Of a DNA stretch of 64,000 bases, positions 12,712-48,758 are shown piece by piece (the stretch's first letter is position 1; each line of letters starts with the position of its first letter). The position numbers and the translations under genes are program-made. The stretch comes from Planctomycetota bacterium (lineage in GTDB: Bacteria > Planctomycetota > UBA1135 > JADKAF01), in assembly GCA_016793245.1 (NCBI GenBank), contig JAEUHW010000290.1, forward strand, positions 1-64,000, written 5' to 3'. The notes under the pieces are model-generated. The model made no database searches, was not told where the DNA came from, and worked only from the letters and a program-made list of their open reading frames with translations.

Positions 12712-14748
12712 TCACTCCGCTTCCTCCGGATGCTTGTAGGCCGAGCTGACCTTCTCCTGCACCTGCGGCGGCGCGCTCTCGTAGCCGACGAAGCTCATCG
12801 CGTAGCTCCCCTCCCCCGCCGTGATCGAGCGGAGCTGCGTGGAGTAGGTCTGCACTTCGGAGAGCGGGATGTGTGCCTTGATGATCTGAACGTCGCCATC
12901 CGTGTCCATGCCCTGGATGCGACCGCGCCGCGTGTTCACGTCGCTCGTGATGTCGCCCAGGAAGCGCGAAGGGACGCGGATCTCGAGCTCGTAGATCGGC
13001 TCCAGCAGGACCGGCCGCGCCTTCAAGAAGCCCTCGAAGAATGCGCGGCGCCCAGCGAGCTTGAACGAAGCCTCGTCCGAGTCGACGTCGTGGTACTTGC
13101 CGTCGTAGACCTCGACGGCGACGTCCACGACCTCACAGCCCGCGACCGGACCGCGGGCCAAGCCCTCGCGGATGCCCTTGTCGACCGCCGGGATCAAGTT
13201 CCTCGGGATCGATCCGCCGACCACCGAATCGATGAACTCGAAGCCGCTGCCGCGCGGCTTCGGCGACACGCGCAAGAAGACTTCGCCGAACTGCCCGCGT
13301 CCGCCGGACTGCTTCTTGTGCCGGTAGTGCCCTTCGGCCTTTCCCTGCACGGTCTCCTTGTACGGGATGCGCGGCAAGTGCGTCTCGACCTCGACCTTCG
13401 CCCGGTGCTTCAGACGATCGATCATGATGTGCAAGTGCAGATCGCCGAGCCCTTCGAGAAGCATCTCGTGCGTCGTCTCTTCGCGACGCACGTGGAAGCA
13501 GGGATCTTCGACCCCGAGGCGCCGCAGCCCCTCCGCGAGCTTGGTCTCGTCCTGTGCGCTCTTCGGCCGCACGGAGAGCGCCGTCCACGGATGCGGGAAA
13601 CGCGGAGGAGTGAACTGCGGGAGATCGGCCTCGGTCCCGACCGTGGTGCCGAGGACGAAGTCCTCGATCTTCGTGATCGCGATCAAGCTGCCGGCCGGCG
13701 CGGCATCGATGTGCTTCAGACCTTCGCGACCTCGCGCCACGTTGATGCCGTGGAGCTTCACGGGCTTGCTTGCGCCCTTGGGATAGAGCTGCGCGTCGCC
13801 GCGCAGCACGCCCGAGCGAACGCGGAGATAGGTGATGCGACCGACGTGCATGTCGGTGACGACCTTCCAGACCTGCAGGATCGCCGGCCCGTCCTCGCGC
13901 GGCGCGATCGGGATCACCTCGCCGTCCTTGGTGGCCCCTCGCGCGGGGAAGTCGAGCGGTGAGGGGACGTGCAGCTCGAGGAAGCGCATGAGCCCTTCGA
14001 TGCCGCGATCTTCTCGCGCCCCCACCGTGAGCAGCGGCACCACGGCGCCCGCGGCGATCGCCTTCGGAAGCGCCGCCAACACGACCTCGCGCGAGAGCTG
14101 TCCCTGGTCGAGGTACGCCGTCATCAGCGCCTCATCGGACTCGGCGACGCGATCGACCAGGGTGGCGTAGTACGCCTGTGCGCGAGCGCGGAATGCCTCC
14201 GGAGCCGCGGAGGGATCGAGCGCGTCGATGACGGCCTTGAAGTCGTGGCCGTTGGCATCCGGGAAGCTCACCGGGACGCACTTGTCGCCGAAGGCCTCCT
14301 GGATCTCCGCGAGCAGGGTCTCGAAGTTCGTATTCTCGGCGTCGTTGCGCGTGACGATGAGGATCCGGCCGACGCCGGCTTCGCCGGCGAGCTTCCATAG
14401 CGTGCGCGTGCTGAAGGTGACGCGGCTCGCCGCGGAGACCACCACCGCGGCCACCTCGACGGCCGAGAGCGCGGAGATCACTTCGCCCACGAAGTCCGGG
14501 TAGCCGGGGCAATCCACGAGGTTCACCTCGCGGCCGGCGTGCGAAGCGTGGATCACCGTGGCGCGGAACGAGTGCTTACGCTCCAGCTCCTCCGTCTCGA
14601 AGTCGCTGATCGAAGTGCCGCTATCGACGCTTCCTAGCCTCGAGCCGACGCCCATGTGGTGGGCCAAGTGATCGACGATCGTCGTCTTCCCCGTTCCGCT
14701 GTGACCGATGAAGGCGACGTTGCGGGCTGCGCTGGCCGGGCTGCTCAT
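12712..14748 (-). CDS. Divergent EF-G-like translational GTPase
   Basis: This 678-aa protein has the five-domain layout of EF-G. The G1 loop is GHSGTGKTT and the G3 is DCPGYPDF instead of the usual DTPGHVDF. The switch-I region reads DFETEELERKHSF in place of the ERGITI-type sequence, as in the EF-G-like (FusA2) subgroup. The G4 guanine motif NKxD is replaced by TRND (in LIVTRNDAEN). Domain IV keeps GGRGQFGEVFLRV and the EF-G C-terminal fold ends with THEM/GLGDLHLHI upstream and the GSYAMSF segment. Canonical EF-G is probably elsewhere near the str operon. The paralogue may act in ribosome recycling, stalled-ribosome rescue or a stress form of translocation; this is inference. The ATG at 14748 has GAGG upstream. 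Confidence 0.88.
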   Translation of the reverse strand: MSSPASAARNVAFIGHSGTGKTTIVDHLAHHMGVGSRLGSVDSGTSISDFETEELERKHSFRATVIHASHAGREVNLVDCPGYPDFVGEVISALSAVEVAAVVVSAASRVTFSTRTLWKLAGEAGVGRILIVTRNDAENTNFETLLAEIQEAFGDKCVPVSFPDANGHDFKAVIDALDPSAAPEAFRARAQAYYATLVDRVAESDEALMTAYLDQGQLSREVVLAALPKAIAAGAVVPLLTVGAREDRGIEGLMRFLELHVPSPLDFPARGATKDGEVIPIAPREDGPAILQVWKVVTDMHVGRITYLRVRSGVLRGDAQLYPKGASKPVKLHGINVARGREGLKHIDAAPAGSLIAITKIEDFVLGTTVGTEADLPQFTPPRFPHPWTALSVRPKSAQDETKLAEGLRRLGVEDPCFHVRREETTHEMLLEGLGDLHLHIMIDRLKHRAKVEVETHLPRIPYKETVQGKAEGHYRHKKQSGGRGQFGEVFLRVSPKPRGSGFEFIDSVVGGSIPRNLIPAVDKGIREGLARGPVAGCEVVDVAVEVYDGKYHDVDSDEASFKLAGRRAFFEGFLKARPVLLEPIYELEIRVPSRFLGDITSDVNTRRGRIQGMDTDGDVQIIKAHIPLSEVQTYSTQLRSITAGEGSYAMSFVGYESAPPQVQEKVSSAYKHPEEAE

Positions 14749-14946
14749 GGAGACCTCGTCGGCTATGCCGCGAAGGGGTTTCTCCCGCAGCGGTCGAGGC
14801 ACCGCCGCGGATGGCGGCTCCGTCACGCAGAGGCCTACGTGGAGGCCGAGCGCTCATCCGCCCGGCGCGCGAGGCTCCTAGGGAGCCTGGGAAGTAGGCG
14901 CGGATTCTAGCAACCCCGCGGAGAATTCAACGTACGCGAGAAAGCA

Positions 14947-15026: not shown

Positions 15027-15743
15027 CTAGTCGGTGTTGGAAACGAGCAGCTCGACGCGGCGGTTCTTCGAACGCGCCACCTCGGTCTTCGCCTTCACCG
15101 CCGGCGAGAACTCGCCGTGGCCCACGCAGACGAGATCGTCGTCGCTGACGCCGCACTTCTCGCTCAGGTACTCGATCACGCTGAGCGAGCGAGCGACCGA
15201 AAGGTGCAGGTTCGACTTGAACGGCGACTTCACGATCGGCGTATCGTCGGTGTGTCCCTTCACCCACACGCGCCGATTCGGATAGCGCTGCTTGATCACC
15301 TTCGAGAGCTCGCGCAGCGTGGACTGCCCTTGCCCCGAGATGTCGGCCTTCCCCGGATCGAAGGTCACCTCGTTGTCGACGGTGATCATGATCCCGCCGG
15401 GGACCTGGGAGTAGGTCACGCCGGCGAGCTTGTTGTTGCGGTTCAGCTCGTCGGCCTCGCTCGCGCGTTTCGCGGCCTGCGAGTCGAGCTCGCCCTTCAT
15501 GCGATCGCGATCGGCGAGGGCTTCGCCCGCCAGTCGCTTCTGCTCGTCGATGAGCGCTTGGGAAGACGCGTTCTCGGCGCGGGCTTCCTCGAGCTCCTCG
15601 CGGAGCATCTTGTTGTCGTCGCGGAGGCTCGCGATCAAGCGATCGTCGGCTTCCTTCTGCAAGGCGTACTTCTGGGTGCAGCTGCTGGCGAAGAGCGCCA
15701 GGAGCAGGCCGCCCAGGAGGGAGGTGGCGTGCACGTTTCTCAT
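15027..15743 (-). CDS. OmpA/MotB-domain outer-membrane lipoprotein
   Basis: The 238-aa precursor has a lipoprotein signal (MRNVHATSLLGGLLLALFASSC, lipidated Cys22). An extended coiled coil of about 80 residues follows, rich in E, R and A (for example LREELEEARAENASSQALI). The C-terminal OmpA-like peptidoglycan-binding domain contains GIMITVDNEVTFDPGKADI, WVKGHTDDTPI, LSVARSLSVIEYL and CVGHGEFSP. It would tether the outer membrane to peptidoglycan. It starts 56 nt after the pilD stop and ends at a strong terminator. A Pal-like or motility stator-like (MotB) role is possible, but the transmembrane helix of MotB is absent. Confidence 0.9.
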   Translation of the reverse strand: MRNVHATSLLGGLLLALFASSCTQKYALQKEADDRLIASLRDDNKMLREELEEARAENASSQALIDEQKRLAGEALADRDRMKGELDSQAAKRASEADELNRNNKLAGVTYSQVPGGIMITVDNEVTFDPGKADISGQGQSTLRELSKVIKQRYPNRRVWVKGHTDDTPIVKSPFKSNLHLSVARSLSVIEYLSEKCGVSDDDLVCVGHGEFSPAVKAKTEVARSKNRRVELLVSNTD

Positions 15744-15799: not shown

Positions 15800-16780
15800 C
15801 TACCGACCTTGAACCCAAGCGGGCCAAGTCTGGAAGAGGAAGACGTTCAGCTCGGAACGGAAGAGGAGGACGACGGCGCCCCCGAGCGATAGCGCGGGGC
15901 CGAAGGGAATGACACGACCTGCGATCCAGGCGATGTCCCAGCGCCAACGCGGCCGCTGCGCGCGACGGCGCGACATGCGCACCGCGCGCACGGCCAAGAT
16001 GCGGAGAACGTTGAGCAGGCCCATCACGGAGCCGAGCATCGCACCGACCAGCAGCACGAACACGACGCCCACCGCACCGACGAAGGCACCGAGGCCGCCC
16101 ATCAGTTTCACGTCGCCGAAGCCCATCGCCTCGCGACCCGCGAGCTTGGAGGCGAGCCAACGCAGCCCCCCCACCAACGCGAGCCCAGCCAACATGCCGA
16201 GCACGCCGTCGAGCGCGCCGTGGAGCCAGGTGTAGTCGCCGCCCTTCCAACGCGCGATCAGCGAATGCTCGCGATGCAACGCCGGCACGAGGGCGCTGCA
16301 GAGGACGCCGAGCGGCATCATCGGCTTCGTCAGCACGTCGGGCAGGATCTGGAAGTCGAAGTCGATCATCGACGCCGCGAGCAGCACGGCGAGGAGCGCC
16401 CAGAGGACGAAGAGCAGAGCCCACGGGAAATCGAGCGCTTCGTGACGCACGCGCAGGTGTTCGAACACGAACCAGAACAACGCTCCGGTCGCGAGCTCGA
16501 CGGTCGGATAACGCACCGAGATGGCTCCGCGACACGCGCGGCACTTCCCGCGCAGCGCGAGCCACGAGAGCACGGGCACGTTCTCGTACCACGCGATCGC
16601 GTGCCCACAGCTCGGACAATGCGAGCGCCCCTCGGCGACGCCTTTGCCCTCGCGCGGCAGGCGATAGATGACGACGTTCAGGAACGACCCGACGAGCAGC
16701 CCGAAGACCGCCGCGAACGCGGAGAGCAGAGCGGGAGATTCTTCGAGGAGGACGGACAACGACTCACCGGGGCCGGACAA
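15800..16780 (-). CDS. pilD: Prepilin peptidase / N-methyltransferase PilD
   Basis: This membrane aspartic protease cleaves and N-methylates type IV prepilins and pseudopilins. The 326-aa protein has the N-terminal GSFLNVVIYRLPR signature, the zinc-binding CPSC ... CRAC pair (Cys 55, 58, 80, 83) of the bifunctional enzymes, and the catalytic aspartate regions MIDFDFQILPD (about 138-148) and GFGDVKL (220-226). Multiple hydrophobic segments span the protein. The initiation codon appears to be TTG at 16780, since no in-frame ATG or GTG precedes the conserved region. It sits between a large lipoprotein gene and the OmpA-like gene, far from pilBCT, and would serve the pilin at 6618. Confidence 0.95.
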   Translation of the reverse strand: MSGPGESLSVLLEESPALLSAFAAVFGLLVGSFLNVVIYRLPREGKGVAEGRSHCPSCGHAIAWYENVPVLSWLALRGKCRACRGAISVRYPTVELATGALFWFVFEHLRVRHEALDFPWALLFVLWALLAVLLAASMIDFDFQILPDVLTKPMMPLGVLCSALVPALHREHSLIARWKGGDYTWLHGALDGVLGMLAGLALVGGLRWLASKLAGREAMGFGDVKLMGGLGAFVGAVGVVFVLLVGAMLGSVMGLLNVLRILAVRAVRMSRRRAQRPRWRWDIAWIAGRVIPFGPALSLGGAVVLLFRSELNVFLFQTWPAWVQGR

Positions 16781-16868
16781 GGCTGCCCGCGCATTGTCCT
16801 TCCGGGTGCCCCAGCGTCAAGATCTAGGTCTCTCTCGAGCGCAGCCCCAAGATCTAGTGGGTCCGCGC

Positions 16869-18989
16869 TCAGCGCAAGAGAACCTCGAGGCGATCGACCT
16901 GTGCGTGACCGGCAGCGTCGTCGTCGCGCCCTTGCGCCGGGAAGAGCTCGATCTCGAGCGCGATGCGCGCGCGAGGTTGCCGCGGCAAGGCCAAGGGGAA
17001 CTCGGGCCGGAGCCTCCGAGCGATGCCCTCCCATGCGCGCGGACCTTCTCCCACCTGCACGTACGCGCGCACGTCGGCTTCTCGGCCTCGCGCGAGCCAG
17101 AGATGAGCGATGGCCGCCGGCTCGAAGACGCGGCGCAGATCGCCGAAGGGCACGCCGGGACCGACCGCTCGGAAGCGCAGCGGGACGGCGGGGCGCAACG
17201 AGCGATCGAAGCGAAAGCGCCCGTCGCGCACATGCACGATCGAAGGGAGCGCTGCCGCATCGACGCTGAGGCCCGAGACCATCGCGGAGATTCCAGCGGG
17301 GTGCTCGGGAGCGAAGATCCAGAGCGCCTCGGCGCGGATCTCCGCGAGCGGCGAGAGACGAACGCGATTGCTCGACGCCAAGACGACCACTCGTCCCGGA
17401 GCGTCCAGGCGCCCATCCCACGTGAGTTCGCCGCTCGCGACGAAGACCACCGCGGGCGTGCCCTCGTCCGCGAGTTGGCGCAGCGCGGCATCGAATCCCG
17501 CTTCGACGCGAGGCACGGAGCCGAGAGGAGCGAGGAGCGGCCCTTCTGGTGCCGCGACCTCGAACTGGCCGTGCATGCCGAGGCGCCCTTGCGAACGGAG
17601 CACCGCCAGACGTTCCGCACCGATGCTGGCGCAGCAGCCGGACGGCACGATGGCGCGCGAGGTCTGCAAGCCACGAACGCCCTTGCCTGAGGTCTCGATC
17701 CGCAGCTTCTCTCCGGGCGCCGCGCGCGGCAGCTCCTCATCGCTGCCGTCCCCGCCTTCCTCGGCGAGCATCGCCTCGGCGACGCCTTCCCACGTGCGCA
17801 GCACGCCGTCGGCGGGAGCCAGGCCCAGTTCGCCATCGTCGGGTGCGAGCTGCTCCCGCGGCAGGAAATCGAAGCTCAGCGCGCGCGAGCGCACCGGTCG
17901 CTCGAGCAGGGTGACCACGAAGTAGTTCTGATCCGGCTGCAGAGGCACGCTGCCGTATCCGCGCAGGCCGGCTGGCACGAGGTAGCCATCGGACGCCCGC
18001 TGGAGCGGAACGTCATCGGCGGGGCGATCGAAGGCGAGGAAGAAGCGGGTTCCAGCCGTTGGCGGGGCCACGAATTGCGGTCGGAGTTCCAGCGCGCAAC
18101 CATCGACGAGCCATTGAGGATCGAAGGATAGGCCTGCGGGCAGCGGGATCTCGCCTTCGTCCCAACGCCGGCGCGCCTCCTCGGCGCGCAGCAAGCGCAT
18201 CGCCACGGGGATCAGCTCTTCTGCGGGCCACTCGTGCGGAGCCTGCTGGAACAGCGGAGAGCTTGAATCGCGCGGCTCCTGCACGAGGCGCACGCTGCGC
18301 GGCCCGAGCGAGTCGGGCCGCAGCGGACTGTCGAAGAGGAGGAACCACGTCTCGGCATCCGTCCAGGCATGCACGTTGTGGTCGAAGTCCTGCTGCGGGA
18401 TGACGCGCGGCAGGTGAGGCAGGTCATCGCCGGGCCAGGTTCGATCACCGAGCGTGAAGAGGCGCTTCACTTCGCCTTTCCCGACGGTGCGGAACTCGAT
18501 CACCGCGCTCTCCTCGAGGAGTTGGCCTTCGAGGGCGCGCAGCCCATCGGGGCGCGGATAGCCGGCGATGCGCACCCGATACATCGAATCGGGTTTCAGT
18601 CCACCGTCCTCGAGATCGGGGCGCAGTGGGACTTCGGGGACGAACGCGACGACGTTGCCTCGACCGATGAGGCGATAGGTGCCGGCCACGTTCTCGGTGG
18701 AAGGCTCACCGGCGACCAGGCGCGCGATGCGGATCGTCTCGGGACGCAAGGTGCCGGGGTCCACCGGTGCGGAGAAGCGCAGCCAGAGCGCGTCGTTCAG
18801 GCGCACGGCATCGCCGCCTGCCTGGTCGCAGCCTAGGAAACGAAAGGAAACGGGTCGCGAGCGCTCCCCCGGATCGCTGCAGGCGGATGCGAGGCAAGTC
18901 ACCACCAGCGCAGCGACCGCGACCACGGCATGCAGCGCGCGCGCAGCAGCGAAGCGTCTCGAGAGGAGAGGATCGCGTCCCGGAACCAT
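16869..18989 (-). CDS. Large lipoprotein with Ig-like domain
   Basis: The 706-aa precursor has a lipobox (LVVTCLASAC, Cys37), placing the mature protein in the envelope. The N-terminal part reads LWLRFSAPVDPGTLRPETI, a pattern common to bacterial Ig-like (Big_5/SbsA-type) domains in which a sentence such as FSxPVDPxTL recurs. A second copy of the feature may lie at WFLLFDSPLRPDSLGPRSV and a third at RFFLAFDRPADDV. The C-terminal part has no recognisable family and no catalytic motif. It resembles the next two genes in having a lipobox and Ig-like pieces, and precedes pilD by 88 nt. Cell-surface or secretion-system accessory roles are guesses. Confidence 0.8.
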   Translation of the reverse strand: MVPGRDPLLSRRFAAARALHAVVAVAALVVTCLASACSDPGERSRPVSFRFLGCDQAGGDAVRLNDALWLRFSAPVDPGTLRPETIRIARLVAGEPSTENVAGTYRLIGRGNVVAFVPEVPLRPDLEDGGLKPDSMYRVRIAGYPRPDGLRALEGQLLEESAVIEFRTVGKGEVKRLFTLGDRTWPGDDLPHLPRVIPQQDFDHNVHAWTDAETWFLLFDSPLRPDSLGPRSVRLVQEPRDSSSPLFQQAPHEWPAEELIPVAMRLLRAEEARRRWDEGEIPLPAGLSFDPQWLVDGCALELRPQFVAPPTAGTRFFLAFDRPADDVPLQRASDGYLVPAGLRGYGSVPLQPDQNYFVVTLLERPVRSRALSFDFLPREQLAPDDGELGLAPADGVLRTWEGVAEAMLAEEGGDGSDEELPRAAPGEKLRIETSGKGVRGLQTSRAIVPSGCCASIGAERLAVLRSQGRLGMHGQFEVAAPEGPLLAPLGSVPRVEAGFDAALRQLADEGTPAVVFVASGELTWDGRLDAPGRVVVLASSNRVRLSPLAEIRAEALWIFAPEHPAGISAMVSGLSVDAAALPSIVHVRDGRFRFDRSLRPAVPLRFRAVGPGVPFGDLRRVFEPAAIAHLWLARGREADVRAYVQVGEGPRAWEGIARRLRPEFPLALPRQPRARIALEIELFPAQGRDDDAAGHAQVDRLEVLLR

Positions 18990-19066
18990 GACCTCAGTTC
19001 CTAGCGCGACCGCAGAGCTCCGGCAAGGGCAGACCCCTTCTCCTCACGGCGGCAGCCCAACAAAGC

Positions 19067-19104
19067 GCGAGGCGCGGCGAGCCCTAGAGCTCGCCGCGCC
19101 TCGC
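19067..19104 (-). terminator. Intrinsic terminator after the Gly-rich lipoprotein gene
   Basis: The arms 19067-19082 and 19089-19104 form a perfect 16-bp stem with a 6-nt loop. The minus strand then reads GCTTTGTTGGG. It lies 31 nt after the stop codon at 19135 and ends that transcript. Confidence 0.82.
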
Positions 19105-19134
19105 CGCGATTCGCTTGCGCCTCAGGCGCGCGGA

Positions 19135-22100
19135 TCAGAACCGGAAGGGCAGCTTGAAGAAGTCGATCTCCGCGCGCGGCGAAGTGCTGCTCAGGCCCTG
19201 CAGGTTGAAGTTCAGGTTGAAGAGGAAGCGCGTGCGGAAGAACTGCTTTCCGTTCAGCACGCTGACGTCGCCGGTCCACGTGTTGGCGCTCGGCACCACG
19301 GTGGAAGGATCAGGCTGCGACGGATTGTTCGAGAGCGGATCCGCGCCCTGGAACTGGATGAAGACCCCCACCGAGGGCGGATACGCCCCTTCGACCCCAT
19401 CCGTGAGGATGCGGAAGTAGCGCGGGTTCAGCGAGACCACGGCGGTAGCTTGCACGAAGGTGAGCTGCGTCAGCAGGTTGCCGTCCGCGGCATCCGTGGT
19501 GAGCAGCGTCTCGCCGCCTTCGTAGGCCGCTCCCACGATCGTGAACGAACGCCGATTGGGGTCGCTCTCATCGGCCAGCTCCCAACCGATCATGATCGCC
19601 GGATTGTCGATCTCGATCGGCACGCTGGGGAGCCGGATGCTGTTCGCCGTCACCTCAGCCTGGTCGACTCGGTAGGTCTCGAAGTAGCGCGGCGGGTTCT
19701 GCACCGTGTTGTTCGCCGAGCGATCGACGAGACCAGCGTTGGCACCCGTCGGTTGCGTACCGTCGAACCAGTAGAAGGGCGGATTGAAGATCGTGCCGCT
19801 GCCCGGATCGCTGAAGCCCGTGGAGATCCACTTGCTCTGCGCGACCGAGACGGAGCCGAAGTCCGGCACCAGAACCACCGGAGCCGGAGTACCGGGCGGA
19901 TTCGGCGGGGTCAGGTTGGCAAGCGGATCCGGCACGTGAACCTGGATCACGCCCGAACCGCCGTGCCCGCCGGCGCTGTCCGCAGGATAGGCCACGCGAC
20001 CTCCACCCGGACCACCCGTGCCACCGCGCGCGTCGAGCGTCGCACCGGTCAGGTTCACCGACGAAGTCGACATCAGGATGATCATGCCGCCGGCACCGGC
20101 ACCCGAGCCGCCGGGCACGGTGTTGGTTCCACCGGTCGACTCACCGGAGCCGCCGCTGCCGCCAACGGCGAGGATCTGACCCGCGACCCGGATCGTCCCG
20201 AGCGCCTTGATCACCACCGCGCCACCACCGCCACCGCCGCCCGCGCCCTTCAGGTCGCAGTTCTGCGCCGAGGCGTTCGCGCTGTTCCAGTTCGGGCTCG
20301 GGCAAGAGGCCCACTGAATGGAGTCGCCACCGGCGCCGCCACCTTGTCCGCCTTGGATGGTGTTGAGCTCGCCGAAGATGACCCCGAGCACGAGATCGGA
20401 GCGCACGCCGAAGAAATTGTTGTTGTTCGCCGTGTCACGGAAGAGCGCCGGGCCAGACGCGCCGCCGGGGCAAGGCTGCTGGAACGAGCAGTTCTGCGAG
20501 GCGCTCGGACCATTGCGCCCGCAACGCCCTTCATCGGAGCGCGCCGCCGGGGGGTTGGTCGTGATGCACGTTCCCTGGCGCCACGTACCGCCACCGCCAC
20601 CGCCCGCGCGATGCTGTGTTACGGCAGTGCCGACACCGGAGTCGCCGCCTTGACCGCCCGCGCCGAGCGCGTTGAACGCGCCGTTGCCGGGGCCGCCGCG
20701 ACGCGTCGAGGTCGTGGTCTCGAACGAGCCCGTGCCGCCGCTGCCGCCGGAGCAGGTTCCCGGAGAGCCGCGCTCGGGGATCGCCGTCGAGCACACGGTG
20801 TTGACGTTCGGGTTGTTGATCCCGTTCATCAGGAGCGTGCCGTTGATCGTCACGTTCCCCGTGCAGAGGATGACCAGCGGATTGGAGCCCTGCGCGCGCA
20901 GGGTGCTGCCCGCGTTGATGGTGAAGTTCCGCACGTCGACGATCCCGTTCGCCACCGGCTGCGTCAGCGTACCCGTGGCATTGGTGATCGTGTCGAAGTC
21001 GGTATCGATGACCGTCGTGCCCTGGATGACCCAATCGAAGTCGATGTTGGTCCCGTCGAAGGGCGTCGCCGGAGCGAGCGTGCGGTTGGCGGTCGCCCAC
21101 TCCGCGCGCGGCTCGGGGAAGACCGCCTGACTGTCCCAGTAGGTCTCGGTGCGGAAATCCTCGAAGAACGCGTCGGTGAGGGTCTCGGTCAACGGCTGCA
21201 CGGCGAAGCGCAGCGGATCGATGTCGGCCAAGTTCGTCTCCCCGACGATGTCCTGGAGCTCGCGCTTGATGCGCAGGCGCAGGTTCGAGCCTTGGGGCAG
21301 GAGGCCCTGCGGCGAGAGCATGACGGTCGAGCCTTCGATGCCGCAGTTCTCGACCAGCGTCACCACGATCGGCACTTGTACGGTCGCGCCGCCGGGCACG
21401 TCGTAGAGCAGCTGGAAGTTGCTCGTCGAGATGTTGGTGTCCGTCGGGCGGAGCGGCTGATCGAACTGGACGACGATCGGATCGATCGGATCGGAGTAGC
21501 TGTTGAGACCGATGTCCACCGGGTTCGCCGGGATCCCGCCGGTGGCCGGGTCAGGGAACACCTGCTCCGAGCCAACGAAGATCTTGGTCACGAGAGGCGG
21601 CGCTTGAGGCCGCGGGTCGAGGAAGAACTCGAGCGAAGAGGTCGGCGTGGTGAACTGCCGCGTGATGCCCAGCGAGATGCGCTCGCCCTCGGTGCTCTTC
21701 AGGACCGTGGCATTGCGCCCATTCGCGGTGGGGATCGCCAGACGGTACTGCGTTCCGAACGGCAGCAAGCCACCGTTGTCGAACGAGTTGTTCGTCGGGC
21801 AGAGCGGCTGGAACACGAGCGTTCGACCACCGCTGCCGGCCTTCAGGAAGAAGGAGCCGACCGCGGGAACTCCCGTGAGCACCTCGTAGATCTGAATCGA
21901 GTTCAGATTGGCCGAGCTGAGGTCGACCGCTTGGTTGAAGGTGATCTCGATCGGGCGGTTGATCTGCCAGGTCACGTTGTCGAGCAGACCACCGGTCGAT
22001 TCCAGGCTGAACCGGCCGTTGCCGCCGCCGCCACCACCGCTGCAGGCCGGCAGCGAGAGCGCGAGCAAAGTGCCCAGCGCAAAGCAGGCTCGGCTGCGCC

Positions 22101-22155
22101 CCAACTGCGGGCGCGGGGGGCCGACGAAGCGTAGGAGAGACGAGAGAAGAGACAT
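19135..22155 (-). CDS. Large Gly-rich lipoprotein with Ig-like and beta-helix-like regions
   Basis: The 1006-aa precursor has a lipobox (LALSLPAC, Cys38) followed by a polyglycine linker (GGGGGG). An Ig-like unit with IEITFNQAVDLSSANLNSI lies near residue 70 and a second (IVVQFDQPLRPTDTNISTS) near 230. The middle, about residues 410-760, has segments such as NFTINAGSTLRAQGSNPLVI and NVTINGTLLMNG, then many GGxGG stretches. This arrangement resembles large adhesin-like, AgmC-like proteins of predatory and gliding bacteria, and suggests a beta-helix. The function is unknown, but surface exposure through lipidation is likely. It has its own terminator, and it is the middle of three adjacent lipoprotein genes. 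Confidence 0.8.
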   Translation of the reverse strand: MSLLSSLLRFVGPPRPQLGRSRACFALGTLLALSLPACSGGGGGGNGRFSLESTGGLLDNVTWQINRPIEITFNQAVDLSSANLNSIQIYEVLTGVPAVGSFFLKAGSGGRTLVFQPLCPTNNSFDNGGLLPFGTQYRLAIPTANGRNATVLKSTEGERISLGITRQFTTPTSSLEFFLDPRPQAPPLVTKIFVGSEQVFPDPATGGIPANPVDIGLNSYSDPIDPIVVQFDQPLRPTDTNISTSNFQLLYDVPGGATVQVPIVVTLVENCGIEGSTVMLSPQGLLPQGSNLRLRIKRELQDIVGETNLADIDPLRFAVQPLTETLTDAFFEDFRTETYWDSQAVFPEPRAEWATANRTLAPATPFDGTNIDFDWVIQGTTVIDTDFDTITNATGTLTQPVANGIVDVRNFTINAGSTLRAQGSNPLVILCTGNVTINGTLLMNGINNPNVNTVCSTAIPERGSPGTCSGGSGGTGSFETTTSTRRGGPGNGAFNALGAGGQGGDSGVGTAVTQHRAGGGGGGTWRQGTCITTNPPAARSDEGRCGRNGPSASQNCSFQQPCPGGASGPALFRDTANNNNFFGVRSDLVLGVIFGELNTIQGGQGGGAGGDSIQWASCPSPNWNSANASAQNCDLKGAGGGGGGGAVVIKALGTIRVAGQILAVGGSGGSGESTGGTNTVPGGSGAGAGGMIILMSTSSVNLTGATLDARGGTGGPGGGRVAYPADSAGGHGGSGVIQVHVPDPLANLTPPNPPGTPAPVVLVPDFGSVSVAQSKWISTGFSDPGSGTIFNPPFYWFDGTQPTGANAGLVDRSANNTVQNPPRYFETYRVDQAEVTANSIRLPSVPIEIDNPAIMIGWELADESDPNRRSFTIVGAAYEGGETLLTTDAADGNLLTQLTFVQATAVVSLNPRYFRILTDGVEGAYPPSVGVFIQFQGADPLSNNPSQPDPSTVVPSANTWTGDVSVLNGKQFFRTRFLFNLNFNLQGLSSTSPRAEIDFFKLPFRF

Positions 22156-22314
22156 CGGGGACTCTTGCTCGGATGCGAGAACGGCGCGGATGCGCGCGAC
22201 TCGCGGTTTTGAGGGAGATCGTCTCGGCGCGGAGCTCGCGAGCTCGAGAGCCGAACGTAGAAGGCGAGGAGAGAAGCGAGATCGCGTCGCCCTGGCAGGC
22301 GGCAGCGATCGTCC

Positions 22315-22377
22315 CCGCGGCGCGCAGGCGCGCCGCGGAGGAGATCACGAGCACCGCGGGTTCGGCCCGCGGCGCTC
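22315..22377 (-). terminator. Paired hairpins after the third lipoprotein gene
   Basis: The first stem (22349-22360 with 22366-22377) is 12 bp with one mismatch and starts 3 nt after the stop codon at 22380. A second, perfect 10-bp stem (22315-22324 with 22329-22338) follows. There is no clear U-tract, so Rho-independent termination is uncertain. Confidence 0.5.
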
Positions 22378-22379
22378 GA

Positions 22380-25343
22380 TCAGGGCAGACGCAGCCAACC
22401 GAGGCCGATCGTCGAGATCGTCGGCACGCCGCCGGTCGCGAGGTTGTTCACCAACGTGAAGCGCATCTGGAGGAAGCGCTTGCCATTCACACTCGTGATG
22501 TTGCGCGTCCAGGGAGAGATGCCCGTTGCAGCCCCGTTCGGCGTGCACTCGGCAAGGATCGCCGTGGGCATCGGATCGCCGTAGAGGTTCACGCACTCGG
22601 CGTGCTGCAGATGACGCGTGTTCGACACGACGTTGTCGGAGCCGCGGAAGTCGAGGAAGAAGTTGGTCCCTGCCGGCTGCTCGGACTCGAGGGGCTCGAT
22701 GACCGGCGGCTGGTAGCGCGGGAACGAGAAGGTGGGATCCACGACCTGCGTGTCGAGCCAGCGCGTGATGCCGCGCGAGATGCGAATCACGAAGTCCGCT
22801 TGGCCCCAGTAGATCACCGGGTCGTCGGCCGGCGTCGGGCGCCCCGGAGGCGTCGTCGTCGGATCGAAGCCGCCGCGCGGGGTGTTGTTGTTCGGATCGA
22901 CGCTCACGCGCTGGTTCTGCGTGTTGAATCCACCCGAGGAGAAGACGCGGAAGTTCGGTCGGTTCGAAGTCACGCCCGCGAGCGAGATCTGGAAGCCGTT
23001 CAGACCACGCGACTGGGAGCCCTGGTCGGGATAGACGCGGTAGTCCATCAGCAGCGGCAAGCCGATCGTGGGCACCTGGTTCGCCGCGGCGAAGTTGCGC
23101 CGCGAGTTGGGGCCGAAGATCTGATCCAGGATCATCGGGTCGGCGCCGACGCCGTTCGGCGCGGCGCGCGACTCGATCGTCGTGTCGCGCCAGGTGTAGG
23201 TCACCTTCTGGCCGAAGTCGTCTTCGAAGATCGGGAACGGCACCATCGTCGATCCCGAGCCGGGCACGATGAACGCGTCGAGGTTGTTGAAGCTGTATCC
23301 GGAGTCGACGACCTTGAGCTGCGCCGTCTGGCTCAGCACGTTGTTGGAGAAGGTCGAGCGATTGAGGCCCGAGTTCGGGTAGGTCGGCATCTGCGAGCCC
23401 GGGTCGATGTACTCGTCCGGGAGGAACTGGCAGTGCGACAGGTGGATCTCCATGCGCGGGAAAATGTCAGCGATGACCTGTCCGCCGAAGGGAGACCAAG
23501 AGAGACGCTCGACGTCGATGTTGTAGCCGCTCTCGTCGTCGTAGGTCAGCCCGAGGTCGATGTAGCGCCACACCGTCATCATGCGGCTGCCCAGAGGCAC
23601 GAGCGGCGTCTGGATCGGCTGCGTGAAGGCGATCTTCTGCGCGATCACGGGCTGACTCGGGTCGACAGGCACCTGGAAGCGAGTCACCGGACGCCCGCGC
23701 ACGAAGCCGAGCTCGGTGAAGCGCTGGAACTGCCCGCGCCATTCGCTGCCGATGAGCTGCGTGGTCGTCGGCGGGTTCGGGTGGGAGTTGTCCTCGTCCT
23801 GCGTGGAGAAGCGGAAGACGAAGGAATCGACCTTCACCGAAGGACGCGCGCTGTCGATCGTGAACGAGATCGCCTGGTCATCGAAGTCGAGCGCGTTCCC
23901 CGCGAGGTCGCGCATGCTGAACGGGGATTGCTGGTCCGCGCGAAGGTGCAGGTAGTAGGTCTCGGAGGTCCCGAGGTCATGCGCGAGCCCCGGCGCCGCG
24001 GCCTGGAAGGTGAACTGCCGGTTGTCCGGCGAAGGCACCACTTCGCCCATCGCGAACTCGCGATAGGTCAGCGTCGCGAGGTTCGGGTTGCGGCTCACCA
24101 TCATCGAGTCGAAGGGACTGATGGTGGTGGGGTCCATCGGCTCCGAGAAGCGCAGCGAGATGCTCGCGGTCGGATCGACGCCGTTCGTCGGCATGGTGAT
24201 CGCGAACGGAGTGAAGCGCGCGAAGCAGTCGATGAGATCGGAGCCCTGGTCGAAGGGGCTCACGTATTGCGCGCGTTGCACCGTCGAGAAGAGGCCGCCG
24301 ACATTGTCGAGCCGGCGAACGTTCACGAGGAAGTCCGGAGGCGAGGCATCGAGGATCTCGGTGATCTCGGCGAAGCGATTGCCCTGCTGGATGACATCGC
24401 CGCGGTCGGGGACGACCAAGCAGGCCGCGACATCGAACTCGTAGGCGAGCTGCGTCGCCGTCTGGTTCACGATGGCGACGGGCTGCTCGCCGAGCAGTCG
24501 CGGCGCCGCGAGGTCGAGGAGGAAGCCGCGGTTCTGGTCAAGCGCGTTGCCGGCGCGGAACGCGCGCACGACGATCGAGCTGTTAGAGGAGTCGGTCGGC
24601 CCGTTGCCCACCGAGCTGAGCGGGCTGCCAGAGCGACTGAGGAGGATCTTGGTTTGCCCTGCGCCCGGATCTTCGAGGGTCGGGATGCGGATCGAGATGT
24701 TCGGGGTGCTGGGATCGACCGAGCTGGGAAATCCCGTCGCGTTCACCGGGGTGCCGGTCGTCGCCTGGTCGATGAGCGTGATCGTCGGATCGACGACGAC
24801 GACGGTCGGGTCGATGGGGTCGACGATGTAGCGCACGTTGAGCGGGGTCGTCGGCGGCACGCCGGCGAAGACCTGCAGGGTCGTGTTGTCGAGAGTGCTC
24901 TCATCGACGTCACCGGAGAACTTGAAGCGCAGCGCCGCGTTGCGGGGCACGAGAGAGAACGGCGGGATGGCGTCGTACCCCTTCGAGAGCACCGTGCCGA
25001 GGCCCGCGGTCAGGCGATCGAAGAGCAGCTGCCACGCGGGATCCTGCTGCGTGCGCAGGATGCGCAGCGTCGCGATCTCGGTCACCGGATTGAAGGTGAG
25101 CTCGTAGCTCTGCCCGTCGGAGATGATGTCCTCCCCGATCACGTAGTCCGGGCGAACCTCGGCGCCGTTCACGTCGACCACGTTGACGAGGCGTCCCCAC
25201 GAGATGTTGCGGATCGTGAGGCGACCGCCGGAGCTGCCGCCACCGCCTCCCCCCCCGCAGCTCGGGAAGGCCACGGCCAACACGGCCAGGGCGATCGCTC
25301 CTCCTAAGAAGCGCGAAGCCCGGTTGAAGACGAATCTCGACAT
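22380..25343 (-). CDS. Large lipoprotein with repeated Ig-like domains
   Basis: The 987-aa precursor has a signal peptide and lipobox (AVLAVAFPSC, Cys29) followed by seven glycines. Ig-like (Big_5-type) units include LRFKFSGDVDESTLDNTTLQ and ISLRFSEPMDPTTISPFDSM. The rest is beta-rich with many Asn, Thr and Gly. The C-terminal end (SVNGKRFLQMRFTLVNN, then TISTIGLGWLRLP) matches in pattern the C-terminal end of the preceding gene (VLNGKQFFRTRFLFNLN), so the two are paralogues in part. The true start is the ATG at 25343; the frame upstream is low-complexity. No enzyme motif was found. Localisation is the outer membrane or surface by inference. Confidence 0.8.
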   Translation of the reverse strand: MSRFVFNRASRFLGGAIALAVLAVAFPSCGGGGGGGSSGGRLTIRNISWGRLVNVVDVNGAEVRPDYVIGEDIISDGQSYELTFNPVTEIATLRILRTQQDPAWQLLFDRLTAGLGTVLSKGYDAIPPFSLVPRNAALRFKFSGDVDESTLDNTTLQVFAGVPPTTPLNVRYIVDPIDPTVVVVDPTITLIDQATTGTPVNATGFPSSVDPSTPNISIRIPTLEDPGAGQTKILLSRSGSPLSSVGNGPTDSSNSSIVVRAFRAGNALDQNRGFLLDLAAPRLLGEQPVAIVNQTATQLAYEFDVAACLVVPDRGDVIQQGNRFAEITEILDASPPDFLVNVRRLDNVGGLFSTVQRAQYVSPFDQGSDLIDCFARFTPFAITMPTNGVDPTASISLRFSEPMDPTTISPFDSMMVSRNPNLATLTYREFAMGEVVPSPDNRQFTFQAAAPGLAHDLGTSETYYLHLRADQQSPFSMRDLAGNALDFDDQAISFTIDSARPSVKVDSFVFRFSTQDEDNSHPNPPTTTQLIGSEWRGQFQRFTELGFVRGRPVTRFQVPVDPSQPVIAQKIAFTQPIQTPLVPLGSRMMTVWRYIDLGLTYDDESGYNIDVERLSWSPFGGQVIADIFPRMEIHLSHCQFLPDEYIDPGSQMPTYPNSGLNRSTFSNNVLSQTAQLKVVDSGYSFNNLDAFIVPGSGSTMVPFPIFEDDFGQKVTYTWRDTTIESRAAPNGVGADPMILDQIFGPNSRRNFAAANQVPTIGLPLLMDYRVYPDQGSQSRGLNGFQISLAGVTSNRPNFRVFSSGGFNTQNQRVSVDPNNNTPRGGFDPTTTPPGRPTPADDPVIYWGQADFVIRISRGITRWLDTQVVDPTFSFPRYQPPVIEPLESEQPAGTNFFLDFRGSDNVVSNTRHLQHAECVNLYGDPMPTAILAECTPNGAATGISPWTRNITSVNGKRFLQMRFTLVNNLATGGVPTISTIGLGWLRLP

Positions 25344-26062
25344 GATGCTTCCTGGCTGGAGACGGCTCGCGGGCCCGATCGGGCGGACCGGAGAGCCATC
25401 ATCAGAGTGCTTGGAGTGGGAGTGCAGAGGAGGCGAGGGATCCGAGAAGCCTACGTCCAGGGGCGAAGCAATCCGGAACGGAGATCCTGAGCCTTCGAGC
25501 GCAGGACCAGGCCGACGCGAAGGGGCGCTCACACCGACTCCCCGCGAAGGGAACGTCGAATTCCTGCCCCGATCGAGCCGCTGAACTGCGAGCGAGTGGC
25601 CTGCGGCCAAGGCGGAGAAGCCCAGGATCGCAGTGGCGCGCGGTTCACTCGTTCCGATGCGTGCCGCTCCCCCCATCGCCGTCGTCGACCCCGCCCATGC
25701 GGAGCGACCACTCGGGTCCAGAGGAGCGCAGCGCGGCATTCTCGAAATCGAAAGTAGCAGTGTCAACGCTGGCCGTAACCGGCGCTGGCATCGTTCCCCG
25801 CGGCGGGCGCTTCGGGTGCCCCGATCGCTTCGAGCGACCAGGTCGAGCGAGAACGCCTCGCGCGGCACCTACCTTCGGGCAGTCCGGAGAGCAGCAAAGG
25901 CCTTGCCAGCGCCTCCGATTCCGAAAACTCGTACATAAATCGGCCGCCCATATGGACTTACAGACGGAACTTCGGGGCTCGCGACCTCGGACTTGCGCGG
26001 CGCGCGGAGCAGGCGTGCTCGCTCGGCGTGCGCTTTCGCACACCACGGAGCGGGACCGGCCC
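25344..26062. other. 719-bp intergenic region between pyrB and the lipoprotein gene
   Basis: No gene is recognised. The stretch 25900-25960 is lower in GC than its surroundings. A small minus-strand frame (25763-25951, ATG start, beginning MGGRFMYEFSESEALARP) has no ribosome-binding site and ordinary codon use at best, so I do not call it. A promoter-like sequence lies at 25738-25766. Confidence 0.5.
25738..25766 (-). promoter_or_regulatory. Candidate sigma-70-type promoter for the lipoprotein gene
   Basis: On the minus strand a consensus -35 TTGACA (25761-25766) is followed 17 nt later by GAGAAT (25738-25743), four of six matches to TATAAT. It would start a transcript about 385 nt upstream of the lipoprotein start at 25343. 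No other recognisable promoter was found in this gap. Confidence 0.45.
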
Positions 26063-27415
26063 TCAATTCGCGAAGGCCGCGCGCTGCACCTGCTCGTCGC
26101 TTTCGAAGAGCACCATTTCCTGCGCCCGCACGTTGGCGGCCTCGGGAGCACCCGCGCGCCACGCGGTCCGGCGCTCGCGATCCCCGACGAATCCGACGGG
26201 ACGCTCGGTCTCGCAGAAGGCGCAGCGCACGCGGAGCGGCCGGCGCGAGTCGATGCGGAAGCGCGAACCGAGGTGGGCCTCCTTGCTGCTGATGCAGGTC
26301 GGATTCGCGCAGGAGAGCGGGCTCCCCAGCACCTCGTCTTCGTCCTGGATGCGCTCCGGAGGCGGGCTCTTGAAGCTCGAGCGACCGAGGAGCACGGAGA
26401 TCAGCGCCATGCGGACGTGGACGCCGCGAGCCGCCTGGACGAAGTAGATCGAACGCGGGTCCTTGTCCATCTCGTAGGCGATCTCGCCGGTCCGCGGCAG
26501 CGGATGCATGAGTGAGGTCGCCTGGAACTTCTTGCCCGCCATCGTGTGCGGCTCGATGCGCAGATAGCGCTCGGGCGCCCGCCCCCCATCGCGAACGAAG
26601 CGCTCGATCTGCGGGCGCGTGACGTAGAGCGCGTCGTAGCTCGGGACATCCAGCTCGGTGACTTCGGTGAAGAGCGAGAGCTGGTGCGGCTTCTGCGGAG
26701 TGCAGTAGACGACATCCGCGTCGCGGGACACGTCCGGGAAGTCCCTGAGCGTGACGTGCTGCGGCTCGTAGGCCTGACGTCGACCGAGGCGCTCGAGCAC
26801 ATAGCTGGGCAGCTCGAGCCCGGGGTGCGGTACGAACACGAGGTTCGCGCGGAAGCGCGCGAGGGCGTACGCGAACGAGTGCACCGTTCGCGAGTACCGG
26901 AGGTCGCCCACGAGAACGACCGTGAGCCCTTCGAGAGACCCCTTCTCGACCCACAGCGAGTAGAGATCGCAGAGCGTCTGCGTCGGATGCTCGTGAGATC
27001 CGTCTCCGGCGTTCACCACCGGAACGGCGGCGAACTCCGCGGCGACTTTGGCGGCTCCTTCACAAGGGTGCCGCAGGATGATCACGTCCGCGTAGCTGCC
27101 GCCCACGACGCGCACCGTGTCGGCCAAGCTCTCGCCCTTCGAAGCGGACGACGACGACATGTCCGCCGCGGAGATCACGCGTCCGCCGAGGCGTCCCATC
27201 GCGGACTCGAACGAGAGCCGGGTGCGCGTCGAGGGTTCGTAGAAGAGGCTGGCGAGGATGAAACCGCCGCAGAGATGCGACCAGGCGCGGAGGTCTCGGC
27301 CCATCTCGTGCGCGAGCTTGAAGAGCTCGAGGATCTCCTGATTGCTGAGATCGTCGATGGAAACGAGATCGCGCTTCGCAGGCCGCAGGGCACTCGGGTC
27401 GGCGGGGTCGTGCAT
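26063..27415 (-). CDS. pyrB: Aspartate carbamoyltransferase with fused PyrI-type zinc domain
   Basis: ATCase joins carbamoyl phosphate and aspartate to N-carbamoyl-aspartate, the second step of pyrimidine synthesis. Residues 1-345 are a standard catalytic chain with the carbamoyl-phosphate loop FYEPSTRTRLSFESA (58-72), RHPCEGAA and HEHPTQTLCD (141-150). The C-terminal 100 residues contain CANPTC and CAFC (Cys 369, 374, 398, 401). The spacing CX4C-X23-CX2C matches the zinc domain of the regulatory subunit PyrI, which contacts the catalytic chain. The nucleotide-binding N-terminal domain of PyrI is absent. It follows the MnmE-like gene by about 54 nt and is probably in one operon with coaX. Confidence 0.92.
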   Translation of the reverse strand: MHDPADPSALRPAKRDLVSIDDLSNQEILELFKLAHEMGRDLRAWSHLCGGFILASLFYEPSTRTRLSFESAMGRLGGRVISAADMSSSSASKGESLADTVRVVGGSYADVIILRHPCEGAAKVAAEFAAVPVVNAGDGSHEHPTQTLCDLYSLWVEKGSLEGLTVVLVGDLRYSRTVHSFAYALARFRANLVFVPHPGLELPSYVLERLGRRQAYEPQHVTLRDFPDVSRDADVVYCTPQKPHQLSLFTEVTELDVPSYDALYVTRPQIERFVRDGGRAPERYLRIEPHTMAGKKFQATSLMHPLPRTGEIAYEMDKDPRSIYFVQAARGVHVRMALISVLLGRSSFKSPPPERIQDEDEVLGSPLSCANPTCISSKEAHLGSRFRIDSRRPLRVRCAFCETERPVGFVGDRERRTAWRAGAPEAANVRAQEMVLFESDEQVQRAAFAN

Positions 27416-47188: not shown

Positions 47189-48520
47189 TCAGTGGAGACG
47201 GCGACGCCACGACGAGGGGATCCCCAGCTCCTTACGGTACTTCGCCACGGTGCGCCGCGCCACGTCGAGACCGTGACGCTGCGCGAGCACGCGCACGATG
47301 TCGTCGTCGGAGAGCGGCGCCCCCCGATCCTCTTCCGCGAGCACCGCTCGCAATGCGACTTGGATCTCGGCGCGGGAATGCTCGTGCCCTTCTTCGTCGA
47401 CGAGGCCCGCGGAGAAGAACGAGCGCAGCGAGAAGAGCCCCCAAGGCGTCGCTGCCCACTTGCCGGCGACGGCGCGGCTCACCGTCGACACGTGGATCGA
47501 GAGGCGATCGGCGATCTGCTGCATCCGCAAGGGCTCCACGTGATCGGGGCCGTGCGCCAGGAAGGCGCGCTGCGCCGCGAAGAGCGCTCGAGCCACGCGC
47601 GCCAACGTCGCGCGGCGCTGCTCGAGCGCATCGATCAGATCGCGAGCGGCATCCACGCGCTCTCGCCAGTAAGAGCGCGCCGAGCTCTCCATCCGCCGAT
47701 CGCGTGCGAGCGCGGAGACATCCTCGTCGATCGAGAGTCGCGGCAGCGGGCCGTGCTCGACTTCGACCTCGAAGCCCGAGGCGGTCCACTCGACGATGAC
47801 GTCGGGACGGACCTGGGCCGCGCTCTCGGACTCGAACTCCGCGCCCGGCCGCAGACGCAGCCCCCGCGCGTGCTCGAGCGAAGCGCGCAGCTCCTCGACG
47901 CTGATCCCGAGGCGCTTCGCCACCTTCGGCAAGCGGTTCTTCGAGACGTCCTCCAGGAAGTCGACGAGCACGCGGCGCACGACCTCTTCTTGAGGATCCG
48001 CCGGATCGAGCTGCAGCAGAAGACACTCGATCGAACCGCGGCCTCCGACGCCCCGCGGCTCGAGCTGCTGGACGTAGGCGATCGCGCGGCTCCAGAGCGC
48101 CGCGTCGCTCGCTCTCCCGAAGCTCGCCGCGAGGGCGCTCTCCTCGGCGACCAGCCAGCCCGTCGCGGGATCGACATGCGCGATCACGTGCATCACGGCG
48201 TCCTCGAGCTCTCGGTCCAGCGCCGCGAGCGCGACCTGCCGGCTCAAGTGCTCGATCAAGCCTTCGCCGTGAGCCGGCGCGCTTTCGAGCAGGTGATCCG
48301 CGCGCTCCTCGCGCGCCGCGCGCCGCGCGGGAAGGGCCGCGGAAGCGCGCGTCGCCTCCGTCGGCACCGCGACGAGCGCTTCGTTCTCGGAGATCGCCTG
48401 CTCCACCCGCTCGGCGAGGTCTTCCACGGGGAGCTGCAGCACCTCGATCGCCTGCAGCATCTTCGGCAGCAGCAAGAGCCGCTGCTCCGCACCCTGGCGC
48501 AGTTCCTGCCCGATCCGCAT
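47189..48520 (-). CDS. rpoN: RNA polymerase sigma-54 factor RpoN
   Basis: Sigma-54 recognises -24/-12 promoters and needs enhancer-binding ATPases. The 443-aa protein has the activator-binding region (QELRQGAEQRLLLLPKMLQA), a core-binding domain with DPATGWLV, and the RpoN box ARRTVAKYRKELGIPSSWRR at the C-terminus. I use ATG at 48520 with GGAGAGG upstream; a longer frame lacks conserved sequence. It heads the cluster with truA, hpf, ptsN and HPr. In other bacteria RpoN controls pilin transcription, but no clear -24/-12 site was found before the pilin here. Confidence 0.94.
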   Translation of the reverse strand: MRIGQELRQGAEQRLLLLPKMLQAIEVLQLPVEDLAERVEQAISENEALVAVPTEATRASAALPARRAAREERADHLLESAPAHGEGLIEHLSRQVALAALDRELEDAVMHVIAHVDPATGWLVAEESALAASFGRASDAALWSRAIAYVQQLEPRGVGGRGSIECLLLQLDPADPQEEVVRRVLVDFLEDVSKNRLPKVAKRLGISVEELRASLEHARGLRLRPGAEFESESAAQVRPDVIVEWTASGFEVEVEHGPLPRLSIDEDVSALARDRRMESSARSYWRERVDAARDLIDALEQRRATLARVARALFAAQRAFLAHGPDHVEPLRMQQIADRLSIHVSTVSRAVAGKWAATPWGLFSLRSFFSAGLVDEEGHEHSRAEIQVALRAVLAEEDRGAPLSDDDIVRVLAQRHGLDVARRTVAKYRKELGIPSSWRRRLH

Positions 48521-48758
48521 GAGCGTCCTCTCCGTCCCCGTGCTGGCGAAGCCGCCGAACACCCCTCTTCCGAGGAAGAGGTGCCCTTCTCATCGGGCGG
48601 GAACCCCTCGATCCAGGGGGAGCATTTTTCGCGTAGCGGCGAGCACGGCTGCCAGCGCTCGCTCCCGCGGGGGCCGAAGTCGCGGCGACGGCGTCGATCG
48701 CCATCGGCACGGACCGCTGCGCATCAAATCGCGTCGGCGCGGGCCCAGCGCGCGCCGA

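Follow-up and report, generated by a model that had tools for sequence, protein, structure and literature searches.

The stretch of DNA studied here (the window: 64,000 nucleotides from a Planctomycetota bacterium, contig JAEUHW010000290.1) carries three adjacent genes for large predicted lipoproteins, here called L1, L2 and L3, next to pilD, the gene for a prepilin peptidase. Open reading frames and Pfam searches confirmed this layout, which had been reported in a preliminary description of the sequence, including the OmpA-like lipoprotein gene that comes next; the latter lies after pilD and falls slightly beyond the range that the description had covered (15800-25343). On the minus strand the order of transcription is pyrB-like, L3, L2, L1, pilD, OmpA-like lipoprotein, EF-G-like, and then PilT-, PilB- and PilC-like genes (Table 1). 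The reading we prefer, with a probability of about one half, is that L1-L3 form a surface-displayed, adhesin-like lipoprotein module that is tied to pilD but is not part of a type IV pilus.

Table 1. Positions of the lipoprotein genes and of the features around them in the window.
Feature	Position	Strand	Remark
L3 lipoprotein, 987 amino acids	22380-25343	-	length given for the ATG start at 25343; a longer open frame begins further upstream
L2 lipoprotein, 1006 amino acids	19135-22155	-	
L1 lipoprotein, 706 amino acids	16869-18989	-	
pilD, prepilin peptidase	15800-16780	-	Pfam A24_N_bact 2.7e-35, Peptidase_A24 9.2e-14
OmpA-like lipoprotein	15027-15743	-	Pfam OmpA 6.8e-16; start taken from the sequence
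EF-G-like gene	12712-14826	-	
pyrB-like gene	26063-27415	-	upstream of L3
Sigma-54 (-24/-12) like site	25893-25908	-	one mismatch; 565 bases before L3
Terminator-like stem, 17 pairs	19067-19104	-	between L2 and L1; consensus match only, in a region without an excess of such matches
rpoN (sigma-54)	47189-48562	-	one of two genome copies; within the same pilus/secretion region

The host genome belongs to the planctomycete order that includes Pla86 and Poly30, the latter named Saltatorellus ferox (PMC10896814). Scanning named genomes with an alignment of L3 yielded 104 relatives among 132 candidate stretches, from which 78 loci were retained; their labels were mostly Planctomycetota, with some Planctomycetaceae, Planctomycetes, bacterium and uncultured bacterium, and Poly30 and Pla86 were among them. 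Of 81 genomes (our own and 80 relatives from the order), all 81 had a match to L2, 80 to L3, 71 to L1 and 80 to pilD at E<=1e-5, part of the L1 matches falling inside L2 genes through shared domains. The L3 profile matched 119 of the 121 genomes in a class sample and 49 of 246 in a phylum sample, namely 16 from the same order and 33 of the 230 outside it, mostly as partial matches.

Linkage to pilD was assessed in the 80 genomes (our own and 79 relatives) with a pilD match, entering all pilD places and taking L1, L2 and L3 matches from the pilD contigs only. In 75 of these genomes, at least one of the three genes shared contig and strand with pilD and was no more than 14 kb upstream of it (L1 in 67, L2 in at least 61 and L3 in at least 42); the five others have a contig end 0.03 to 1.4 kb upstream of the pilD match. 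The preliminary description had staked its proposal on such linkage in related genomes, and inside the order the linkage was found. Most of the loci that were read, chosen for their matches, repeated the order coaX-mnmE-pyrB-L3-L2-L1-pilD-OmpA-EF-G-pilT with one or more L3 genes; families f5 and f6 have an extra L3-like gene between L2 and L1. At the pilD locus of Pla86 (G020 C1 5128064-5142728; L174), four successive L3 matches stand beside L2, which suggests an expansion of head variants.

The genes around the module invite another explanation, namely that L1-L3 belong to the type IV pilus apparatus, either as outer-membrane partners or as adhesins acting with extension and retraction. The region holds pilT, pilB, pilC, a pilin, PilM, PilO and a secretin, and synteny extends across the order. 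We nevertheless consider this explanation improbable, as L-genes and pilus motors part company in two families, f4 inside the order and f47 outside it, which retain L3 and/or L2 beside pilD without PilB and PilT at the locus. Among the genomes of the order outside f4, 12 in the phylum sample had PilT at 4.9e-131 or better, and eight of the nine tested had PilB at 6.9e-174 or better on the pilD contig (the exception, G006, at 1.3e-128 elsewhere). All 15 f4 genomes tested had weaker best PilB matches (1e-121 to 1e-134), placed on other contigs or at least 240 kb away, and so did all five f47 genomes (1e-118 to 1e-128, also away from the locus). PilT gave one weak match in each of four f4 genomes of the phylum sample (1e-84 to 1e-93); within f47 it gave 1e-74 to 1e-77 in four genomes, 2.5e-103 in G179 and none in G223. 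Neither pilT nor pilB was seen in any of the nine f4 loci with at least 1.5 kb beyond EF-G (L131, L132, L133, L142, L143, L144, L145, L152 and L153), while pilT was present in 20 of the 23 loci outside f4 that extend 900 bases or more beyond it (the others being L095, L115 and L118). These locus counts omit L140, which is another EF-G of our own genome, and eight loci with no family label that are also without pilT and pilB (L197, L203, L205, L206, L211, L214, L215 and L223). Type IV pilus parts would be kept or lost together with the PilB and PilT motors, and L1-L3 were not; that L3 and L2 stay by pilD where the locus motors are missing speaks against a part of a retracting pilus. It is also a warning against naming pilus genes by position alone. 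The L1 of f4 is either a short frame (about 275-320 residues) or unmatched, and in four loci of this family (L142, L150, L151 and L152) EF-G is followed by a prepilin-like frame with GFTLLE or a close variant. PilB-family ATPases gave three to seven matches in each of 32 genomes tested, which leaves room for a pseudopilin machine, and a tie of L1-L3 to such a type II-like machine is possible.

The adhesin-like part of our reading comes from the architecture of the proteins. The mark of bacterial lipoproteins, a signal peptide with a lipobox cysteine, was sought by our own hydrophobicity rule; the predicted lipid cysteines of the window proteins are Cys29 in L3, Cys38 in L2 and Cys37 in L1. Applied to the frames of the relatives' loci, the rule called a lipobox-like cysteine in 38 of 48 L1, 79 of 84 L2 and 130 of 140 L3 frames (leaving aside frames cut by the locus end or containing X: 0 L1, 8 L2 and 25 L3). 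As controls, it called 0 of 54 EF-G, 0 of 57 pyrB, 0 of 30 pilT, 8 of 67 pilD and 56 of 56 OmpA frames. The cysteine is invariant or nearly so in the alignments of the L proteins, the rows of which had been preselected by the same kind of rule. A lipid anchor probably holds L1-L3 on the cell envelope. The polyglycine that had been noted after the lipid cysteine is present in the window but is not a conserved signature: among rows selected by the lipobox rule, GGG occurs within 12 residues of the cysteine in 33 of 77 L2, 51 of 132 L3 and 0 of 42 L1. Polyglycine as a sorting signal was therefore dropped.

Behind the anchor, the three proteins appear to share an immunoglobulin-like (Ig-like) stalk. 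Pfam Big_5 (PF13205; cut-off 23.6 bits) matched L2 (30.5 bits) and L3 (26.1 bits) of the window and, at E<=0.01, 25 of 32 L2 members and 37 of 44 L3 members. L1 of the window had no Pfam match, and its Ig-like character comes from profile likeness to L2: hhalign of the N-terminal halves gave 99.75% for L1-L2, 95.7% for L1-L3 and 94.1% for L2-L3, and L1 also aligned with the beginning of the middle region of L2 (78%). At the other end, the matching C-terminal pattern proposed for L2 and L3 held at the profile level (88.2%, 77 columns), while L1 aligned weakly with L2 at the same end (6.2%) and not with L3 (0.06%). On these alignments L1, L2 and L3 are sister proteins with a putative lipid anchor, an Ig-like stalk and differing heads. 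Family searches yielded no established function for any of them, in agreement with the preliminary description.

AlphaFold models were obtained for L3 (mean predicted local distance difference test 88.5, predicted template modelling score 0.80) and L2 (82.1 and 0.69). In the L3 model, Cys29 is followed by a glycine/serine linker, by one Ig-like domain within residues 41-272 and another within 277-501 as placed by fold match, and by a C-terminal part (about 505-987) that resembles jelly-roll proteins and includes a second beta domain (about 553-854). The ranges of the fold matches suggest that this second domain is nested inside the jelly-roll. L2 has Ig-like domains at about 48-172 and 185-320, a strand and glycine-rich part at about 400-740 and a C-terminal domain with the final phenylalanine; the N-terminal half of L1 is akin to the two Ig-like domains of L2 and is followed by a short head. 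L3 505-987 matched a chain of phage SU10 (7z4b_DW; Z 9.3, root mean square deviation (rmsd) 2.8, 123 residues aligned) and the Eph ligand-binding domains of EphB2 (7s7k; Z 7.6, rmsd 2.8, 121 aligned) and EPHA7 (3nru; Z 7.5, rmsd 3.1, 123 aligned); the second beta domain matched 9d93_Pa (Z 7.8, rmsd 3.8, 161 aligned) and 9kr0 (Z 7.2, rmsd 3.4, 154 aligned). By sequence, no solved relatives of L3 were found and L2 had two weak matches, 4l8j (E 0.001) and, in its glycine-rich region, Obg 1lnz (E 0.02); a viral structure library gave low TM-scores among the matches listed. With stalk and predicted binding head, L1-L3 look like adhesins, for L2 and L3 on the strength of the models.

The Ig-like parts of L2 and L3 also matched two S-layer proteins, SbsC (Z 9.6 and 9.4, respectively) and SbsB (8.3 and 8.1). 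It could accordingly be proposed that L1-L3 are a structural coat, covering the cell in the manner of an S-layer or scaffold and perhaps connected with the shape changes of this clade, and the presence of several paralogues in each genome fits such a coat, as do reports that Saltatorellus cells change shape and fuse (PMC11032199). The same fold, however, matches CopC (10.9 and 9.2) and the L,D-transpeptidase LdtMt2 (8.8 and 8.0) about equally, and TssM scored 10.4 and 9.4. Likeness to S-layer proteins was for this reason not used as evidence of membership. Moreover, unlike SbsC and SbsB, the L proteins are predicted to be lipid-anchored, and Pfam found no S-layer anchoring domain in the scanned L2 and L3 members or in L1. 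We regard a structural coat as rather unlikely.

Outside the order, some lineages share the arrangement of L-genes and pilD and others do not. Twenty loci had been selected because they hold L3 matches, and eight of these have one or more L-genes in the same place by pilD: six show L3-L2-L1-pilD (L251, L253, L254, L255, L257 and L258, from G096 and family f47), and two show a single L3-like gene between pyrB and pilD (L265 and L266). In one further locus L3 lies at the contig end (L256), and ten stand alone. A second set of 40 loci was hand-picked by pilD, not blindly, from the listed part of the matches; the nine in which a profile placed an L-family gene upstream, in some cases with just 28-38 bits (L275, L277, L278, L283, L285, L289, L297, L301 and L304), should thus not be read as a rate. 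Thirteen of the 40 genomes already had an L3 match in the phylum sample, compared with 33 of 230 outside the order there, and four of the nine positive genomes (G105, G099, G087 and G172) had none.

Several observations weigh against our reading. No L-family gene was found by profile in 31 of the 40 pilD-selected loci, so the machine does not require the module. In G083, pyrB is followed by the L-genes (L263), and a different contig, lacking L-genes, holds pilD. L3 paralogues away from pilD are common, and the Z-scores of 7-9 for the L3 head are within reach of unrelated folds; a Z near 8 can reflect a common arrangement. Finally, the neighbouring housekeeping genes share the synteny, and the linkage to pilD can therefore be inertia. 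L1-L3 might on this account be a set for the cell surface or for nutrient capture that has no functional link with pilD and is retained as a passenger in a region that seldom rearranges. The coaX-, mnmE- and pyrB-like genes, obg and rng indeed share the synteny, also outside the order, and L3 and L2 occur together elsewhere (L112, L183 and L187). Against mere position, L275, L278 and L297 have an L1-like gene at pilD without an adjacent pyrB- or mnmE-like match, and G117 and G155 retain a single L3-like gene between pyrB and pilD. We find the passenger explanation doubtful.

For the module that we favour, the following course can be proposed. Sec would export each L protein and, as the lipobox suggests, lipidation would take place at the cysteine. 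Two Ig-like domains, forming a stalk behind a flexible linker, would hold the head off the membrane, as predicted by the models of L2 and L3 and by the profile likeness of L1. The L3 head would be a jelly-roll with an inserted beta domain, a fold known from ligand-binding and phage tail proteins; L2 would carry a strand and glycine-rich head, and L1 would have a short head. A surface polymer or a glycan is the probable ligand of the heads, which might also grip a neighbouring cell. The module would be tied to pilD independently of the PilB and PilT motors of the locus, most likely because display uses a PilD-requiring pseudopilin (type II-like) machine, as for InvL; this is the least certain step. 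Localisation, binding and type II dependence are what we infer for L1-L3. Of the initial proposal, a surface layer or adhesin set assembled with a machine resembling type IV pili or type II secretion, the linkage to pilD holds inside the order and an adhesin-like set agrees with the architecture predicted, whereas f4 and f47 weaken assembly by a type IV pilus and with it a strict pilus role.

Type II systems need a prepilin peptidase. InvL of Acinetobacter baumannii is a predicted lipoprotein of 492 residues with three Ig-like domains and a lectin-like cap, and its surface display depends on the type II system (PMC9245377). By analogy it is the closest described case to L1-L3: compared by description only, InvL and L3 share the predicted lipoprotein nature, Ig-like domains and a C-terminal binding-type head. 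L3 is, however, about twice as long, has two Ig-like domains as far as found, and has a predicted jelly-roll with an inserted domain where InvL has the lectin-like cap; when that feature was sought in the L3 head, jelly-roll matches (Z 7-9) were obtained. The Lig proteins of Leptospira are likewise Ig-like surface lipoproteins and reported adhesins, but their export is described as Lol followed by translocation to the surface, and a link to pilD is not mentioned in the available part of that source (PMC7821625).

PilY1 proteins, the pilus tip adhesins, are large surface proteins encoded with pilus genes, and the location of L1-L3 among pilus genes is similar. The PilY1 domain (PF05567) was absent from L1 of the window, 32 L2 members and 44 L3 members, and a tip adhesin of this kind was dropped for lack of a domain match; a search of 41 genomes gave no match but was uninformative, its control having given no signal.

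The gap between pyrB and L3 was searched for sigma-54 type motifs. A sigma-54-like site in the window is in itself not significant (3 matches against 6.8 expected). Among relatives, however, the motif with at most one mismatch turned up in 15 of the 52 gaps left after deduplication (and in 23 of the 71 before it), compared with a mean of 0.18 and a maximum of 1 in shuffles and 0 on the opposite strand; with at most two mismatches, 25 of the 52 gaps had it, against a shuffle mean of 2.38 (maximum 6) and 2 on the opposite strand. At one mismatch it was found before L2 in 1 of 66, L1 in 0 of 35, pyrB in 0 of 55, mnmE in 2 of 53, pilD in 0 of 66 and EF-G in 0 of 47 cases, the upstream regions of the non-L genes having been cut differently, and before L3 copies elsewhere in 6 of 75 (shuffle mean 0.28, maximum 2). 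This motif evidence suggests that a sigma-54 promoter drives L3 in many relatives. As the site of the window is far from L3 and a stem lies between L2 and L1, we did not assume one transcript. Sigma-54 regulates type IV pili in some bacteria (PMC12316311). The gap before L3 (25344-26062) is long in the window and in many relatives, about 480-910 bases, and about 175-255 bases in f4.

An RpoN match was present in 80 of the 81 genomes; each f4 genome has just one, except G079 with none, and one match is also all that some other genomes have. Nineteen genomes, our own included, have an rpoN copy 25.7-41.6 kb upstream of pilD and on its strand; this count covers genomes whose pilD contig holds an rpoN match, plus one without such a match. 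A pairing of this rpoN with L3 is not claimed, because f4 genomes with one rpoN match also carry the motif before L3.

The Saltatorellus clade has been called shapeshifting (PMC11481906), and its cells are reported to switch between budding and fission in addition to changing shape and fusing (PMC11032199); the presence of such bacteria in the order is why L1-L3 matter. The prevalence of L3 in the class sample, its fixed home and the recurrent promoter motif make it a good candidate for the outward face of these cells. A far-reaching possibility, which we consider very unlikely as a whole, is an undescribed surface system in which a sigma-54-switched, lipid-anchored stalk-and-head set would be displayed by PilD-dependent pseudopilins, would scaffold or grip the shape-changing, fusing cells and would be kept without pilus motors. 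No description of the L1-L3 genes was found in the available parts of the literature surveyed, a coverage that excludes preprints and most subscription papers on the clade.

Beyond the PilC-like gene, the window continues with a TPR protein and then a pilin. On the upstream side it holds mnmE-like and coaX-like genes, a PDZ protein (under the Pfam cut-off), another T2SSE-family ATPase, obg and rng, and also the secretin, PilO, PilM and rpoN; the names pyrB, mnmE and coaX are our reading of the sequence and not from a family search. The EF-G-like GTPase gene separates the OmpA-like gene from pilT, and many loci outside the order likewise have pilD grouped with OmpA-like, EF-G-like and pilT genes. 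Away from pilD, our own genome has a second L3 copy that is 62% identical (L135 8500-11442), and L2-like frames reach two contig ends (L136 13887-16163 and L137 17910-18809).

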